From contig VGXU01000023.1 in assembly GCA_016873215.1 (NCBI GenBank), positions 1-36,980 of the forward strand: a stretch of DNA of 36,980 bases, in the 5' to 3' direction. Position 1 is the stretch's first letter; each line of letters starts with the position of its first letter. Shown piece after piece: positions 5,317 to 36,251 of this stretch. The notes below the pieces were generated by a model. That model made no database searches and was not told the origin of the DNA. It saw only the letters and a program-made list of their open reading frames with translations. The position numbers and the translations under genes are program-made. This DNA comes from Planctomycetota bacterium. Lineage in GTDB: Bacteria; Planctomycetota; Phycisphaerae; Sedimentisphaerales; Anaerohalosphaeraceae.

Positions 5317-5405
5317 AAGTCCCGAAGGGACGATATATAATAGCCGGGGGCGGAAGCCCCCGGAAAGAATTTCCTTTTCCTTTTTTAAGCCCCGAAGGGG
5401 CGACA
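5317..5405. repeat. three-hairpin intergenic repeat, copy 1
   Basis: Three hairpins in a fixed order: GTCCC-GAA-GGGAC (5318-5330), CCGGGGG-CGGAAG-CCCCCGG (5344-5363) and GCCCC-GAA-GGGGC (5389-5401), with a TATATAATAG spacer after the first. The same order and spacing occur, in reverse orientation, at 11870-11958. It fills the hemB-ahbD gap; the last arm GGGGC lies 12 bases before the ahbD-like start and may also act as its ribosome binding site. Confidence 0.7.
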
Positions 5406-28902: not shown

Positions 28903-29931
28903 ATGCGAATGATCGGGTGGTTTTTTCTATTGGCCGGGGTTGTTCTCCGGGCCGATCCTAATTCCATTGCGGCCAGCTATGACAAGCCGGGCAGGCGGGA
29001 TGTCGAAAAACAGCATCTGGAGTGGACGGATGCCGAGCGTTTGCGAAGTATTCCTGTGACGATTTATATGCCCAAAGGCGACGGGCCGTTTCCGGTAATT
29101 CTTTTTTCACATGGATTGGGAGGCAGTCGAGACGGCTATGCTTATCTGGGTAATCACTGGGCGGGATGGGGGTATTGCTGTGTTCATCTCCAGCACGAAG
29201 GCAGCGATTCGGCAGTATGGCGGAATAAAACGCCGTCGAAGGCCTGGCGGGATATGAATAAGGCCGCAAATTCCAAAAACGCCGACGACCGGGTACAGGA
29301 CATGCTGTTTGCAATGAAGATGCTGGAGCAGCTCAATCAACAGCCGCCGTATCGTGGTAAACTGGATACAAACCGGCTGGGGATTGCCGGGCATTCCTTT
29401 GGCGCTCAGACGACGCTGGCTATGGCGGGGGCGGGTCGTAAAAATAAAGTGCCGGTTGACCGGCGGATTAAAGCGGCAATTCCAATGAGCGCTCCGGTTA
29501 TCAGTGGTCCGTTGGGTTTGTTTGGCAAAAGTGTTTATAGCGGGGTTATGGTGCCTTGTCTGCATTTGACCGGTACGCTGGATGATAGCCCCATCGGCGG
29601 CACCAGAGCCGGTGATCGCAGAACACCTTATGATATTATAGATAAGGCCGACCAGTACCTGGTTATCTTTAACGGCGCTGACCACATGGTCTTTTCAGGG
29701 CGAGCGGGACGACCGAGTGATGAACTGTTTGACAAGCTGATTTTGGGTTCTACGACGGCTTTCTGGCTGGCCTATTTAAACAGTGATAGTGGTGCCAAAG
29801 AATGGCTGCAAAAGGGCAGCCTGAAACACTATCTCGGTTCCAATGCCAGTCTGGAGGAGAAAATATTACCTGCCGCAAATGCCGGGACTAACGGTGTACC
29901 TGTTCCAAAGCCTGACGAACCGAACGGATAA
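28903..29931 (+). CDS. secreted alpha/beta hydrolase (dienelactone/chlorophyllase-type)
   Basis: A 342-residue protein with an N-terminal signal peptide (MRMIGWFFLLAGVVLRA). FPVILFSHGLGGSRDGY holds the oxyanion-hole HG, and GIAGHSFGAQTTLAMAG the nucleophile elbow GHSFG. A His in FNGADHMVFSG is a good triad candidate, with Asp in LTGTLDDSPIGG. The layout is like predicted dienelactone-hydrolase or PAF-acetylhydrolase-like lipases that act outside the cytoplasm. GGGGA lies seven bases upstream. A TATAAT stands at 28836-28841 with only a weak -35. Its last 44 bases overlap the 3' end of trpA on the other strand. Confidence 0.85.
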   Translation: MRMIGWFFLLAGVVLRADPNSIAASYDKPGRRDVEKQHLEWTDAERLRSIPVTIYMPKGDGPFPVILFSHGLGGSRDGYAYLGNHWAGWGYCCVHLQHEGSDSAVWRNKTPSKAWRDMNKAANSKNADDRVQDMLFAMKMLEQLNQQPPYRGKLDTNRLGIAGHSFGAQTTLAMAGAGRKNKVPVDRRIKAAIPMSAPVISGPLGLFGKSVYSGVMVPCLHLTGTLDDSPIGGTRAGDRRTPYDIIDKADQYLVIFNGADHMVFSGRAGRPSDELFDKLILGSTTAFWLAYLNSDSGAKEWLQKGSLKHYLGSNASLEEKILPAANAGTNGVPVPKPDEPNG

Positions 29932-30703
29932 AATCGGCAATCTGCTGTTTCATCACGTCCGGCCTGCCTGGATTGTCTTCGATAAATTTGACGATTCTGG
30001 AACCGATGATTACACCGTCGGCTTCCGCTGAGGCCACGGCCGCGGCGTGCTCGGCGCTGCTGATGCCGAATCCCACACAGACGGGTTTATCGGTGAGTTT
30101 CTTTAGTTTGGCCACCAGCGGCTTGACCGCCGCGGAAAGACTGGAACGCTCGCCCGTGGTTCCCAGCAGAGAAACCGTATAAATAAAGCCGGTGGTTTTG
30201 TCCGCGATGCGTTTTAATCTTTCCTGCGATGCGTTAGGCGTCGCCATAAATACGGTTTCCAATCCCGCTTTTTGAGCCAGCGGGGCAATTTCATCCGCGT
30301 TGTCGATGCTCACGTCCGCCACAAGGACGCTGGTTCCGCCGACCGCCTTGAAATCCATGAAGAATTTTTCCACACCGTAATGGTTGATTAGATTGTAATA
30401 AACGAGCAATCCAATCGGTATGGATTTATACGCCGTGATTTTTCCGACGAAATCGAGGGCTTTTTTGGGAGTCATCCCGGCGTGCAGGGCGCGAATATCC
30501 GCCTTTTGAACCGTCGGGCCGTCGGCAACCGGGTCAGAAAAGGGGATTCCCAGTTCGAGAATATCCGCCCCGGCGTCAATGGCGGTCTTGACTAATTCAA
30601 GACTGGTTTTTTTGTCCGGGTCGCCGATGACAAAAAAAGGAATCAGCGCCGCCCGGTTTAATTTTCCAAATATATTGCGATAAGATTCCATATCATTTTC
30701 CAT
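29888..30703 (-). CDS. trpA: tryptophan synthase alpha chain
   Basis: A 271-residue TIM-barrel enzyme that cleaves indole-3-glycerol phosphate to indole and glyceraldehyde 3-phosphate. Catalytic E50 and D61 lie in DILELGIPFSDPVADGP; GLLVYYNLINHYG, the GTTGERSS phosphate loop and CVGFGISSAEHA are also as expected. The ATG stands one base after the trpB stop, so translation is coupled. Last gene of the operon; the 3' end runs 44 bases into the convergent hydrolase gene and no separate terminator is seen. Confidence 0.96.
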   Translation of the reverse strand: MENDMESYRNIFGKLNRAALIPFFVIGDPDKKTSLELVKTAIDAGADILELGIPFSDPVADGPTVQKADIRALHAGMTPKKALDFVGKITAYKSIPIGLLVYYNLINHYGVEKFFMDFKAVGGTSVLVADVSIDNADEIAPLAQKAGLETVFMATPNASQERLKRIADKTTGFIYTVSLLGTTGERSSLSAAVKPLVAKLKKLTDKPVCVGFGISSAEHAAAVASAEADGVIIGSRIVKFIEDNPGRPDVMKQQIADFIRSVRQALEQVHR

Positions 30704-30704
30704 T

Positions 30705-31883
30705 TTATTTGTTTAGAGGACGATGCTGTTCGACGATGCCGATGTCTTTGTCACCCCGGCCGGAAAGATTGACGACAACTGTGGTATCCGCCGGCAGCTT
30801 GCCCTTTTGACTGACGACCCATGCCAGCGCGTGCGTGCTTTCCAGCGCCGGTAAAATGCCCTCCAGCCGGCTGAACAGCAAAAATGTATCCAGCACCGCT
30901 TCGTCGGTGACATTGACATAGTGCGCCCGTCCGATGTCTTTGAGATACGAATGTTCCGGCCCGACGCCGGGGTAATCCAGCCCTGCCGAGATACATTCGG
31001 TTTCGTGCACCTGGCCATTTTCATCCTGTAAGAGGTACGTTCGGGCGCCATGCAGAATGCCGACGGTTCCCACGCACAGAGTTGCACAGTGTTGGCCGGT
31101 GGGGATGCCTTTGCCGCCGCCCTCGACGCCGACGAGTTTGACGTCTTTATCCGCGATGAAGGCGGAAAAAATACCGATGGCGTTGGAGCCGCCGCCGACA
31201 CAGGCGGTCACAATGTCCGGCAGTCTGCCGATTTGCTTAAGACATTGTTGTCGGGCCTCGACGCCGATGGGGGACTGGAAATATTTGACGATGGTCGGAT
31301 ACGGATGCGGCCCGCCCGCGGTGCCGAACAAATAAAAGGTGTCGTCCACGTGTGCCGTCCAGTACCGCAGGGCGTCATTGATGGCGTCTTTGAGCGTACA
31401 CGTCCCGCCGCTAACGGGAATAACCTCGGCGCCCAGCAGTTTCATTTTATGGACATTGAGACTTTGCCGCTCGACGTCGATAGAGCCCATGAAAATTTTA
31501 GTTTCCATTCCGAACAGAGCGCCGACGGTGGCGGTGGCTAATCCGTGCTGGCCGGCCCCGGTCTCGGCGATGAGTTTCTTTTTGCCCATGTACTTAGCCA
31601 GCAGGCCCTGGCCCAGCGTATTATTGATTTTGTGCGCTCCGCCGTGCAGCAGGTCTTCGCGTTTGATATAGACCTTAAAGCCGGCGTATTCGCTGAATCG
31701 TTTGGCGAAGTACAGCGGCGACGGACGGCCCGCATAATTGGCGTAGAGTTCGTTTAACTCCGCCTTAAATTGCGCATCGTCCCGGAATCGGTCAAACGCC
31801 TGTTCAATCTCTTCCAGCGCCGGAATCAATACCTCCGGCACATAAAACCCGCCGAAATCTCCAAATCGTCCGTTATGTTTCAT
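30705..31883 (-). CDS. trpB: tryptophan synthase beta chain
   Basis: A 392-residue PLP enzyme joining indole and L-serine. K85 in GGAHKINNT binds [11 protein letters not shown] is the catalytic loop, GGGSNAIG grips the cofactor phosphate, and [13 protein letters not shown] closes the domain. It is of the TrpB1 type that pairs with TrpA. Its ATG overlaps the stop of trpF (ATGA), showing translational coupling. Confidence 0.97.
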
Positions 31884-32518
31884 ACACGTACTTTTCCGCC
31901 TGTGGCTTTGCGAATGTTTTCAAACAGTAATTTCATCTTCTGATGGTCTTTTTTGCCGGGTTCGGATTCGACGCCGCTGCATACGTCGATGCAATAGACA
32001 TCCCGTTCGGTAGCCTCCACGACGTTTTCCGGCGTGACGCCGCCGGCCAGGAATATCCGCCGATACAAATTGCCGACCAGCGTCCAGTCAAAGGTCTTGC
32101 CCGTGCCGCCGTAGAGCGTTTTGTCGAAGGCGTCCAGCAGAATCGCATCTACGGGATATGTGTCGGCTTTGCGGATATCGTCAGCCGATTGCACACGGAT
32201 GGCTTTGATGATGCGGGCGTTGGTCCAGTTTAGTGACTTGCAGAACTCCGGCGTTTCGTCGCCGTGGAGCTGAATCCAGTTGAAGAATCCTTTTTCGACG
32301 ATGCGTTTCAATTCCATCGGCGAGGGGTTAACGAACACAGCGACCGTATCCACGAAGGTCGGGATTTTCTGGATGATTTCTTCGGCCTGTTCGATGGCCA
32401 GATACCGCGGACTTGGGGCATAAAAATTGAACCCCAGCAAATCCGCGCCCAGTTGGATCGCCAAATTGGCGTCGTCGATATTGGTTATGCCGCAGATTTT
32501 GATTTTTATTGACGTCAT
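31880..32518 (-). CDS. trpF: phosphoribosylanthranilate isomerase
   Basis: A 212-residue TIM-barrel isomerase. C9 in KICGIT is the general base, QLHGDE and [11 protein letters not shown] follow, and IDVCSGVES holds the catalytic Asp. It turns N-(5'-phosphoribosyl)anthranilate into CdRP. The enzyme that should use CdRP, TrpC, is not encoded beside it. Overlaps trpB by four bases; trpD lies 23 bases upstream. Confidence 0.95.
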
Positions 32519-32541: not shown

Positions 32542-33558
32542 TCAGCCATTACTGATTTGGACGAGCGATTCGAGGCATTTTGCCGCCGAGCCGTTCGTGA
32601 CGGCCTGGTCCGCCAGTTCAATGCCGTGTGCAAGGTCGTCGGCCAGGCCCCCGATCATTATAGCCGCCGCGGCGTTTAATACCACAATATCTTTTTTCGC
32701 GCCCGTTTCGCCGCCGGTCAGGATTCCTTTAATAATGCAGGCGTTGGTCTCCGCGTCGCCGCCGGCAAGGCTGTCGTAGTCGGCTCTCGGAATGCCGTAA
32801 TAAATCGGGTCGAGCGTTTCGCTGGAAAATTGCCCGTTCCTGAGATGGATAATTTCCGTCGGCCCCATCGTGCTGATTTCGTCAAGTCCGCAGCTGTGAA
32901 CGACCATCGCGCGTTTGACGCCCAGCATTTGCAATGTCTCGGCGATGCGCCGCATCAGCGATTTGTCCGAAACGCCCATCACCTGGGCCGTCACGCCCGC
33001 CGGATTGGCCAGCGGCCCTAAAATATTAAACGCCGTATGGAAATCCAGCGTCTGGCGTATGGGCTGAACGTGTTTCATCGCCGGGTGAAATTTCGGCGCG
33101 AACATAAAGCCGATATGCGCTTCACGAATACACTGGGCGACCTTTTCCGGCCCCGGCGCGACATTGACGCCCAGCGCCATCAGCACATCCGCCGAGCCGC
33201 AATTACTGGTGATGGCCCGGTTGCCGTGCTTGGCGACGTACACTCCGGCACCCGCGGCAACTAATGCCGCCGCCGTGGAGATATTGAAAATTTTCATCGC
33301 CGCGCCGCCCGTGCCGCAGGTATCGACCAGATTATCCAGTCCCGTCTCCACCTTCACGGCGTGCTGACGCAATGATGCCGCCAGACCTGCCAGTTCGCTG
33401 ACAGCGGCTTTCTTGACCCGCATTGCCGCCAGGAACGCCGCAATCTGCATCTCCGGCACCTCGCCGGTAAAAATCGTATCCAGCAGTTGGTTAGCCTGCT
33501 CAAACGACAGGTCCTGACCTTCCAGAATGACATTCAGAAATTGCGTGATTTTAATCAT
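32542..33558 (-). CDS. trpD: anthranilate phosphoribosyltransferase
   Basis: A 338-residue enzyme adding phosphoribose from PRPP to anthranilate. CGTGG...KIFNIST, KHGNR, SCGLDEIS (Mg-binding DE) and FNILGPLANP identify it. Two normally conserved positions differ: the GTGGD motif reads GTGGA (A86), and the GxRTxFN stretch reads DFHTAFN. The fold and remaining active-site residues look intact, so activity is likely but not certain. AAGGAGG lies six bases before the ATG. Confidence 0.94.
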   Translation of the reverse strand: MIKITQFLNVILEGQDLSFEQANQLLDTIFTGEVPEMQIAAFLAAMRVKKAAVSELAGLAASLRQHAVKVETGLDNLVDTCGTGGAAMKIFNISTAAALVAAGAGVYVAKHGNRAITSNCGSADVLMALGVNVAPGPEKVAQCIREAHIGFMFAPKFHPAMKHVQPIRQTLDFHTAFNILGPLANPAGVTAQVMGVSDKSLMRRIAETLQMLGVKRAMVVHSCGLDEISTMGPTEIIHLRNGQFSSETLDPIYYGIPRADYDSLAGGDAETNACIIKGILTGGETGAKKDIVVLNAAAAIMIGGLADDLAHGIELADQAVTNGSAAKCLESLVQISNG

Positions 33559-33583: not shown

Positions 33584-34186
33584 TTACTTTGTATTAAATC
33601 CTGCCGCGATGGCCAGCACATTTTCAATAATCCGGCCGCCCATTGGCGTCAGGATACTTTCCGGGTGAAATTGCACGCCGTACACCGGCAGCGTTTTATG
33701 CCGACAGGCCATCACGATGCCTTCAAATGTCGCCGTTGTTTCCAAACACTCCGGCATCGTTACGGCACAGAGACTGTGATAGCGTCCCACCTGCAGCGGG
33801 TTCTCGAGGCCTTCAAATAAATCCTGTCCATTGTGTGTGATGCGCGACGGCTTACCGTGCATCACCTGCGGGGCGTGGCTGATTTTGCCGCCGAAATGCT
33901 GCACAATCGCCTGAAGCCCAAGGCATACCCCGAAAATCGGCAGCGTTCCGTTGAATGCGCCAATCGCCGCCAGCGTTACGCCCGCCGTATCGGGATTGCC
34001 CGGCCCGGGGGAAATCACCAGCAACTGCGAACCAAAGTCTTTTGCCGCCTTTTTCAAATCCTCCAGCGGCGTATCGGCGCGATACACCTTCGTCGGACAA
34101 CGCCGCTTGGCAAATTCATCCACGAGATTGTACGTGAACGAATCAAAGTTATCGATAAACAGCACATTCACCGGCTTTATATCCAT
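33584..34186 (-). CDS. trpG: anthranilate synthase glutamine amidotransferase subunit
   Basis: A 200-residue class I glutamine amidotransferase giving ammonia to TrpE. The nucleophile is C88 in FGVCLGLQAI; PGPGNPDTAG binds glutamine, and VQFHPES gives His and Glu of the triad. A PabA role alongside pabB cannot be ruled out, but position directly behind trpE (three bases) argues for Trp synthesis. AAAGGA within the trpE end is its ribosome binding site. Confidence 0.95.
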   Translation of the reverse strand: MDIKPVNVLFIDNFDSFTYNLVDEFAKRRCPTKVYRADTPLEDLKKAAKDFGSQLLVISPGPGNPDTAGVTLAAIGAFNGTLPIFGVCLGLQAIVQHFGGKISHAPQVMHGKPSRITHNGQDLFEGLENPLQVGRYHSLCAVTMPECLETTATFEGIVMACRHKTLPVYGVQFHPESILTPMGGRIIENVLAIAAGFNTK

Positions 34187-34189
34187 TTT

Positions 34190-35830
34190 TCATTTTCCTT
34201 TGTTATCGCTGGGTTTCCCGATGTCTTCAACGGCGCTGCGAATCGCCTTCAGACACGACCCCGCCTTATGGCAGGTCTCTTCATATTCGGTTTTGGGTAC
34301 GCTGTCGTGAACCACGCCGCCGCCGGCGCGAATATAAGCGACATGATCGCGTATCTGCATACTGCGGATGGTAATGCAGCTGTCGAACTGGCCGTCCACC
34401 GTCAGATACATTACCGCGCCGCCGTAGTAGCCGCGTTTGTTTTTTTCAAGCCGCCGGATAATTTTCATCGCCTCAATTTTCGGCGCGCCGGTCAGCGTCC
34501 CCATATTCATTGTCGCTAAGTACGCCGTCAGGGCGTCAAAGTCCTTTCGCAAAATACCTTTGACATTACTGACCAAGTGCATCACCGATTCGTATTTTTC
34601 AACGAAGAGCATTTCGTTGACGATGCGCGTCCCCGCTCCCGCCACCCGCGCGATGTCATTGCGGGCCAAATCCACCAGCATCATGTGCTCGGCCAGTTCC
34701 TTATGGTCCAGCTTTAATTCCGCCTCGTACCGCATATCCGTATCGGGGTCGATTTTGCCGTTGACGCGCCCGCGGGGTTTCGTGCCGGCAATGGGACGGA
34801 TTTCCACCACCCGCTCGGTTGTGCCGCTGACGCGAAGATTCAATTCAGGACTGGCGCCGATCAGGATGGTATTATCCGTATTCAGATAGAACATATAGGG
34901 TGAAGGATTCAGCTTTCGCAGTTTGCGATACACATCCAGCGGCTCGGCGGGACAGGGCTCCAGATGCGTTCGGCTTGGAACCACCTGAAAAATGTCACCG
35001 TTCAGAATATGCTGTTTGGCATTCAAAACCATTTGTTCATACTCGGCTTGCGGCGTATCCGTTGCAAAAGGCGGCAGGGCGGCGGTGCAGGGGTTCGGCA
35101 GAGGGGCGTCTTCTCTGGCCTTATCAAAATAGTAATCGAACGTCTCCATCGCATCTCGGTAAATACCCTCCCGGTCGCCGTTGGTAATGATGGCGTTGAC
35201 GACAACGTATCCCTGTCCTTTTTTATGGTCCATCAGGAATATATTGTCCGCGAAATACATCTCATAATCGGGATTGCCCAGCAAATCCTGTTTATTGGCC
35301 GGCAGTTTTTCAAACTGGTCGATAAAGTCATAGCTGATCGCCCCAAGCAATCCGCAGGTGATGCGGAAGGGCTTGCTGGCCAACTCAAACGCGAATGCAA
35401 CCGCCCGGACGACATCCATCTGGTTGGTGCTCTTGAGGCGTAATTGCTCGTCAATCGTGCCCTGTGTCCGGCGGATAGTTCCCACAATGCGGTCCTCTCC
35501 AAAATCGACTTTTTCGCAAAAGGCGAACCGTTCCCGCCGACCGGCCAGAAATTTCAACATCCGTCTGCCCGTCGCCGTCAGGGCCTCGATGCGAAACTGA
35601 TTGCCCGTTCCCGTCAGGTACAGCGCCGGCTGTGCCGTCCCGAAGGTCAGTTCGTCGGCATTCCGGTCGGTCATGTAATCCCGCGATTCGAGCAGGCAAC
35701 TGTGCTTTTTACGCCCGTAGTCCGTCAGCCGCGAGAAAAACTCCACCGGGCAGCGAATATCAATCTCCCGCACCATCGGCACAATCTGCCCCGGCCGGGC
35801 CTGCTGAATCTGTCTTTCCATCTCATTCAT
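34190..35830 (-). CDS. trpE: anthranilate synthase component I
   Basis: A 546-residue chorismate-using enzyme. LLES at residues 46-49 is the tryptophan-feedback motif of TrpE, which separates it from PabB. IRPIAGTKPRGR, ELAEHMMLVDLARND, GTLTGAPKIEAMKII and GYYGGAVMYLT mark the catalytic domain. With TrpG it makes anthranilate. The ATG at 35830 with AGGACA upstream is chosen over a TTG at 35857. First structural gene of the operon, downstream of a leader region with a Trp-Trp peptide and terminator hairpin. Confidence 0.95.
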   Translation of the reverse strand: MNEMERQIQQARPGQIVPMVREIDIRCPVEFFSRLTDYGRKKHSCLLESRDYMTDRNADELTFGTAQPALYLTGTGNQFRIEALTATGRRMLKFLAGRRERFAFCEKVDFGEDRIVGTIRRTQGTIDEQLRLKSTNQMDVVRAVAFAFELASKPFRITCGLLGAISYDFIDQFEKLPANKQDLLGNPDYEMYFADNIFLMDHKKGQGYVVVNAIITNGDREGIYRDAMETFDYYFDKAREDAPLPNPCTAALPPFATDTPQAEYEQMVLNAKQHILNGDIFQVVPSRTHLEPCPAEPLDVYRKLRKLNPSPYMFYLNTDNTILIGASPELNLRVSGTTERVVEIRPIAGTKPRGRVNGKIDPDTDMRYEAELKLDHKELAEHMMLVDLARNDIARVAGAGTRIVNEMLFVEKYESVMHLVSNVKGILRKDFDALTAYLATMNMGTLTGAPKIEAMKIIRRLEKNKRGYYGGAVMYLTVDGQFDSCITIRSMQIRDHVAYIRAGGGVVHDSVPKTEYEETCHKAGSCLKAIRSAVEDIGKPSDNKGK

Positions 35831-35871: not shown

Positions 35872-35912
35872 AAAAAAAACCGACCTGAATGCTTTTCAGG
35901 GCCTCCAGGTCG
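35872..35912 (-). terminator. trp attenuator hairpin
   Basis: On the minus strand CGACCTG (35912-35906) pairs with CAGGTCG (35887-35881) and is followed by eight U. It lies between the leader ORF and trpE. An inner pairing CCTGAA/TTCAGG is possible. The 3' arm could also pair with an identical AACGACCTG inside the first codons of the leader ORF. Confidence 0.75.
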
Positions 35913-35958
35913 TTTCCTTCTGTTTGGGTATCAATCAGAATAGCACTCGCCCGTCGGC

Positions 35959-36018
35959 TTATCCGCCGGACCGCCACCATCCATTCCGCACAGTATTATA
36001 CAGGTCGTTTCTGTTCAT
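35959..36018 (-). CDS. trpL: candidate trp leader peptide with tandem Trp codons
   Basis: A 19-codon frame, MNRNDLYNTVRNGWWRSGG, ends in TAA at 35961-35959; the two Trp codons are at 35979-35974. Tandem Trp is the mark of ribosome-mediated trp attenuation. The A of the ATG lies within a base of the start site predicted from the promoter, so the message may be leaderless, and no ribosome binding site could exist. Codons 4-6 contain AACGACCTG, identical to the 5' arm of the downstream terminator. The stop codon lies in a weak GGC/GCC hairpin. The symbol is by analogy. Confidence 0.7.
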   Translation of the reverse strand: MNRNDLYNTVRNGWWRSGG

Positions 36019-36025
36019 AGAAACA

Positions 36026-36054
36026 ATTCTACGATATTCCGGTTTTTCTGTCAA
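36026..36054 (-). promoter_or_regulatory. trp operon promoter
   Basis: On the minus strand TTGACA (36054-36049), 17-base spacer, TAGAAT (36031-36026). Consensus -35, consensus spacing and five of six -10 positions. Start of transcription is predicted near 36019-36018. Confidence 0.78.
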
Positions 36055-36072: not shown

Positions 36073-36251
36073 TTACTCAAACTGACCGATGGCCAGAGTT
36101 TGAGAATGAAAAAATCAAAGTGCAAAAAGCAAAAACATGGAATCTGGTTGTTGCGGACAACTGAATTTCACCCATTTTCTTGAACCATATAACATATTGC
36201 TAAATAAAAGGTTACGTTAATTTTTAGCGATATATCGGTCAGTTTGAGTAA
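36073..36251. mobile_element. MITE-like element with 18-base inverted ends
   Basis: TTACTCAAACTGACCGAT (36073-36090) and its exact reverse complement (36234-36251) enclose about 143 bases of AT-rich, non-coding sequence. TA stands at or next to both outer ends, as for elements that target TA. No transposase is inside. It lies just upstream of the trp promoter. Confidence 0.45.

Follow-up and report, generated by a model that had tools for sequence, protein, structure and literature searches.

How transcription of a planctomycete trp operon is adjusted to tryptophan is the question raised by the region upstream of trpE in the DNA studied here (the window, a stretch of 36,980 nt from a bacterium of the order Sedimentisphaerales with a genome of 2.69 Mb). 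On the evidence given below, the region very probably works as a two-layer tryptophan switch before trpEGDFBA, made up of a repressor and an attenuator, a reading to which we assign a probability of about 0.85.

The trp operon and its upstream region

The trpEGDFBA genes are found on the minus strand, at the right end of the window:

34190-35830, minus strand: trpE, anthranilate synthase component I (NF010079 above cut-off), ATG at 35830
33584-34186, minus strand: trpG
32542-33558, minus strand: trpD
31880-32518, minus strand: trpF
30705-31883, minus strand: trpB
29888-30703, minus strand: trpA

The elements observed upstream of trpE are, in the direction of transcription:

36049-36054, minus strand: -35 element TTGACA
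36026-36031, minus strand: -10 element TAGAAT, at 17 nt from the -35 element and 7 nt from the leader ATG
36007-36024, minus strand: 18-bp dyad GTTTCTATGAACAGAAAC, predicted to be bound as operator by a TrpR-family repressor; it overlaps the predicted +1 and the leader start codon
35959-36018, minus strand: trpL-like leader peptide ORF of 19 codons (MNRNDLYNTVRNGWWRSGG, then stop), ATG at 36018, Trp-Trp codons at 35979-35974, with no room for a Shine-Dalgarno sequence upstream
35963-35971, minus strand: segment 1, GTCCGGCGG, directly 3' of the Trp codons, partner of segment 2 in the 1:2 pause or protector hairpin
35949-35958, minus strand: segment 2, GCCGACGGGC, directly 3' of the leader stop codon, antiterminator with segment 3
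35901-35912, minus strand: segment 3, CGACCTGGAGGC, terminator 5' arm and partner of segment 2
35881-35892, minus strand: segment 4, GCATTCAGGTCG, terminator 3' arm
35912-35881, minus strand: terminator hairpin, CGACCTGGAGGCCCTGAAAAGCATTCAGGTCG
35872-35879, minus strand: U8 tract of the intrinsic terminator

An earlier note on this DNA had described the promoter TTGACA-N17-TAGAAT, a 19-codon ORF with two adjacent Trp codons, and a hairpin with eight U before trpE. All of them are present (the promoter at 36054-36026, minus strand), and the promoter, the ORF and the terminator show conservation throughout the order; the dyad spanning the leader start codon had been missed. The 163-nt leader folds with a z of -3.97 and is more stable than 200 of 200 shuffled sequences.

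Conservation of the leader peptide

The trpE upstream regions from 118 genomes of the order Sedimentisphaerales were compared, the comparison being kept within the order because this type of TrpE is confined to it, with only 39% identity elsewhere. A leader ORF, 8-45 codons long and carrying adjacent Trp codons (WW), was found in 112 of the 118 regions, versus 21 of 1180 shuffled ones (1.8%), which answers the earlier call for a comparison of the Trp codons in the trpE leaders of relatives. The Trp count was 3 or 2 in 110 of 116 leaders, and the leaders without WW were mostly variants, such as CWRW in G004, YWRRRW in G026 and YWRR in G029 and G030; in G014 the upstream piece starts inside the Trp codons. 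These results strongly support the prediction that the trpE leader is an attenuator, and the leader peptide with its two Trp residues would most likely act as a tryptophan gauge for the trp genes. The control of a planctomycete trp operon by ribosomes at Trp codons, as the earlier note had suggested from the window, is thus supported by conservation throughout the order.

Prediction of a leaderless or near-leaderless start

Of 115 homologous leaders, 114 have a promoter with a score of 9/12 or more at this place, with a gap of 6-11 nt between -10 element and ATG in 109 of these, whereas only 11 of 472 other ATGs, taken as control, had a promoter so placed. SD-like 4-mers, which precede trpE in 46 of 115 cases, were found before none of the 115 leader ATGs, and the 5' UTR predicted from promoter spacing is about 0-5 nt in nearly all of these leaders. 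Since the position of the ATG follows that of the promoter and no SD-like 4-mer precedes it, the start would be leaderless or have no more than a few bases of 5' UTR before it. The leader ATG that had been placed at the predicted transcript start of the window does lie 7 nt after the -10 element, and a leaderless or near-leaderless leader mRNA is supported for the whole order. In trpR, too, the ATG often falls within the operator and follows the -10 element immediately (L045, L046, L050, L059-L062), so that the trpR mRNA is predicted to be leaderless too.

The predicted operator and its repressor

The dyad was scored as GTTTCTAT-NN-ATAGAAAC over 16 positions, between -50 and +25 of the leader ATG, with a threshold of 13/16. 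It was present in 21 of 21 trpE leaders of genomes with a TrpR-family gene versus 3 of 95 of those without one, the maximum in shuffled sequences being 11; the three exceptional carriers (G001, G003, G019) are genomes 68-91% complete that belong to genera with TrpR, and the trpE dyad of G012 is without mismatch over the 16 positions scored. G013, of the same family, has neither TrpR nor the dyad. The same dyad was found at 22 of 28 trpR promoters versus 12 of 560 shuffles, including neither those of G037 nor those of the f6 genomes, and the site at the trpR of the own genome is weaker (12/16, GTTTCTATGCTTAAGATC).

A third probable target, seen in the three genera g1, g2 and g14 (L267, L269, L270, L271, L275, L276, L281, L283, L185), is the promoter of an operon that encodes an SSS-family symporter, with the dyad ca. 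290-320 nt before the symporter and adjoining an amidohydrolase gene; this arrangement was absent from the TrpR-containing g12 genomes, and no such symporter gene was detected in the own genome at the threshold applied. This symporter is probably a tryptophan or aromatic transporter and would be a further target of the repressor.

A family-wide pattern search allowing one mismatch at most rendered 31 forward matches, versus 5 with the reversed control. Matches in a DNA methylase gene (G028/G029) and isolated ones in G007 and G022 were taken as chance. The methylase gene of G028 (L076, G028:C41) carries an apparent intein (CQPPDTQVMTP... to ...HN before CFYGWK), and the homologue in L077 has none.

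The corresponding protein is encoded elsewhere in the genome:

G000:C49:9516-9758: TrpR-family repressor gene of the own genome (PF01371, 56.6 bits, cut-off 27)

PF01371 (Trp_repressor) was detected in 20 of the 39 genomes of the family, the own genome included, and in 30 of 161 genomes of the order, one of the 30 below cut-off. Against TIGR01321, the TrpR equivalog, scores of 52.1, 50.8 and 44.1 bits were obtained, all of them under the cut-off of 67.25, and the protein matched the TrpR model (52.1 bits) better than YerC/HisR (33.2 bits). In an alignment to E. coli TrpR, with the residue numbering of that protein, the equivalents of T44, R54, R84 and G85 are kept and that of S88 is not. The protein can thus be regarded as a TrpR-like repressor of the TrpR family, presumably with tryptophan as ligand, although the ligand could differ because the score falls below the equivalog cut-off and the S88 equivalent is lost. 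In three genomes of the same order (G143, G146, G147; L170-L172) a TrpR-family gene is found, whereas a close TrpE is lacking and trpR has no dyad.

It could be the case, for the same two reasons, that the repressor responds to a different effector, for instance another aromatic amino acid, so that the two layers would sense different signals; a change of ligand within the TrpR family is exemplified by HisR (PMC9413887). We consider this rather unlikely, given that the predicted targets are trp genes and the repressor's own gene, and that four of the five residues compared are retained.

It is very unlikely, on the other hand, that the leader is an attenuator only and that the dyad belongs to the leaderless start as a feature of its translation or of its promoter. 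Most leaders do have the ATG within the dyad, with a constant spacing to the -10 element, but wherever the TrpR-like gene has been lost the dyad is lost as well, while ATG and promoter stay. Moreover, the dyad occurs without an ATG at the trpR promoter of G020 and of four g12 genomes, in the latter within the spacer. It is also present at the symporter promoter, and in G144/G145 the trpE dyad covers the -35 element TTGACA. A constraint on coding or translation was rejected on these grounds, since sites without an ATG imply that the dyad acts at the DNA level. With three kinds of sites and this independence from the ATG, the 18-bp dyad is almost surely the operator of the TrpR-family repressor, to which binding is predicted. 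The TrpR operator of E. coli is CTAG-based, unlike the GTTTCTAT-NN-ATAGAAAC of this order. On the TrpE tree the presence of TrpR and that of the dyad are clustered (8 and 5 changes, respectively), and independent contrasts between them gave five supported pairs, of which two agree, none disagrees and three tie, a result that is not significant with so few contrasts.

The predicted antiterminator

Terminators were detected in 115 of 116 leaders, the 5' arm being CGCagCCTGTCG, and in almost every leader the Trp codons are followed by a hairpin, typically CCTGTCG...CGACAGG and often extending into TAGCG. It follows from these sequences that segment 2 can pair with either segment 1 or segment 3. 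The energy of the 2:3 pairing was computed as the duplex of the stretch following the Trp codons with the terminator 5' arm, using as controls partners swapped between genomes and shuffled ones. Over 115 leaders the mean was -19.5 kcal/mol for own partners, -16.8 for swapped and -11.4 for shuffled ones, and none of 2000 swapped permutations fell below the observed mean, the best of them reaching -17.6 kcal/mol; the 1:2 pairing gave -12.9 versus -8.5 kcal/mol when shuffled. Compensatory changes over the whole 2:3 helix, affecting both strands, are observed between lineages, for instance in CTGACAGG:CCTGTCGG, CTGACGGGC:GCTCATCGG, CTGATGAGC:GCTTGTTGG and GGCCCGCGGTCGG:CGACCCGGCC.

In the window the helix, GCC-GA-CGGG:CCTG-GA-GGC, is imperfect, with 7 pairs around a tandem G.A loop, and its -16.6 kcal/mol is only 1.7 beyond shuffles, a small margin due to the GC content. 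Judged by its resemblance to the helices of G012 (GCC-GA-CAGG:CCTG-AA-GGC) and G034 (GCCG-A-CAGGT:ACCTG-CGGC), it is homologous to those of the relatives and weaker here. Segment 1 abuts the Trp codons and the leader stop codon is located 6-30 nt 3' of them among the examples listed, a placement that fits classical ribosome masking. The conserved switch, as predicted from these pairings, is an ordinary 2:3 antiterminator, mutually exclusive with the terminator.

A different switch had been put forward in the earlier note: a long-range 1:4 antiterminator replacing the 2:3 pairing, formed when the terminator 3' arm is captured by CGACCTG at codons 4-6 of the leader. The repeat on which it was based, AACGACCTG occurring twice, is real in the own genome and actually 11 nt long (GAAACGACCTG), and the complementarity is exact over 7 nt, with a 1:4 pairing of -14.7 kcal/mol that is the second strongest of 115. 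The repeat is, however, absent from both relatives within the genus, G012 and G011, which carry AGAAACACTTTAAAT and AGAAACAATATTAAT at its position, so that the proposed comparison of the CGACCTG/CAGGTCG segments among relatives finds the leader copy missing in both. Among 115 leaders, only that of the own genome has a word longer than 8 nt in common between its early codons and the terminator, the mean length of shared words being 4.70 versus 4.57 in shuffled sequences. The mean 1:4 energy for own partners (-8.1 kcal/mol) is within 0.2 kcal of that of shuffled ones (-8.0) and close to that of swapped ones (-7.7); the observed mean was matched or undercut by 17 of 2000 permutations, the effect amounting to 0.4 kcal. 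Furthermore, codons 4-6 would be exposed both with a ribosome stalled at codons 14-15 and with one at the stop codon, so that the 1:4 pairing could not report tryptophan, and the terminator hairpin, besides being local, is stronger (-18.2). The 1:4 pairing was rejected as no conserved signal was found with swapped or shuffled partners or in the search for shared words, and we regard it as highly improbable next to the 2:3 antiterminator. Finally, the alternative that the 5' UTR is controlled through a T-box, TRAP or riboswitch instead of a leader peptide can be practically dismissed, as the WW codons are conserved in frame and no Rfam family (trp leader, T-box and riboswitch families were searched) reached or approached its gathering score over the leader; matches at a relaxed threshold were discarded as being at chance level.

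Proposed mechanism and relation to known systems

From the arrangement of the elements we infer where transcription would begin, where ribosomes and repressor would sit, and how the switch would respond to tryptophan. In the first layer, the TrpR-family repressor, presumably in its tryptophan-bound form, would bind the dyad across the transcription start and block RNA polymerase, and it would control its own gene as well. In the second layer, transcription would start at the leader ATG or a few bases from it, and ribosomes would load on the 5' AUG without a Shine-Dalgarno sequence. When Trp-tRNA is scarce, a ribosome stalled at codons 14-15 would cover segment 1, leaving segment 2 to pair with segment 3, which would prevent the terminator and allow trpE to be transcribed. 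When Trp-tRNA is ample, the ribosome would reach the stop codon and cover segment 2, so that segments 3 and 4 would form the terminator, and without translation the 1:2 hairpin would form and lead to termination. It is also probable, with somewhat more reserve, that the whole order controls trp through ribosomes on a 5'-terminal AUG and that, where the repressor is present, a single stretch of 18 bp combines the roles of TrpR-type operator, transcription start and leaderless start codon, both in trpE leaders and, in many cases, in trpR; after loss of the repressor, the operator would decay and the leaderless attenuator stay.

Dual control by TrpR repression and the trpL attenuator is known for E. 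coli trp (PMC7755916), which resembles the system predicted here in its TrpR-type repression and in a Trp-codon leader with 1:2, 2:3 and 3:4 alternatives. The planctomycete region differs in the predicted lack of a 5' UTR and of a Shine-Dalgarno sequence before the leader ORF, in the overlap of predicted operator and leader start codon, and in the phylum, Planctomycetota. In Sinorhizobium meliloti, the trpL (rnTrpL) transcript begins at the ATG of the leader peptide, and classical attenuation takes place before trpE(G), with no repression of trpLE(G) at initiation (PMC7298713). A leaderless leader mRNA followed by attenuation before trpE is likewise predicted here, together with, unlike in S. 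meliloti, a TrpR-type operator that overlaps the start.

Leader peptide attenuators have also been described at trpE of Actinobacteria, namely Streptomyces venezuelae and Corynebacterium (cited in PMC4833913). The planctomycete leaders share with them the Trp codons and the terminator before trpE, and differ in the phylum and in the predicted TrpR-like operator. We know of no such operator at the actinobacterial attenuators.

HisR (YerC), of the TrpR family, senses histidine, binds a 20-bp palindromic site, and regulates its own gene and a transporter (PMC9413887). A PF01371 repressor with a palindromic site and with own-gene and transporter targets is predicted here as well, although with trp genes among its targets, and the HisR motif differs from cacTTTAnnnnnnTAAAgtg.

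A literature search rendered no report on trp attenuation or TrpR in Sedimentisphaerales. As far as this literature goes, the occurrence in Planctomycetota, a near-leaderless leader peptide shared throughout the order, the operator motif and its position over the leader start codon would all be new. Control of trp by repressor plus attenuator, known from enterobacteria, would thereby extend to Planctomycetota, with more than 100 natural leader variants, and attenuation would have to operate here with leaderless initiation. The series also offers natural losses of the repressor, which separate the two layers of control, and it yields an operator motif that is new for a protein of the TrpR family.

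Other features of the window

A perfect 18-nt terminal inverted repeat, TTACTCAAACTGACCGAT, is found at 36073-36090 and 36234-36251, its copies 143 nt apart; the pair adjoins the trp promoter on its upstream side and has the look of a small insertion element, yet it is single-copy in the own genome. An Acido-Lenti-1 RNA is located at 5318-5363, minus strand (59.8 bits versus a gathering score of 37; E 3.3e-11).
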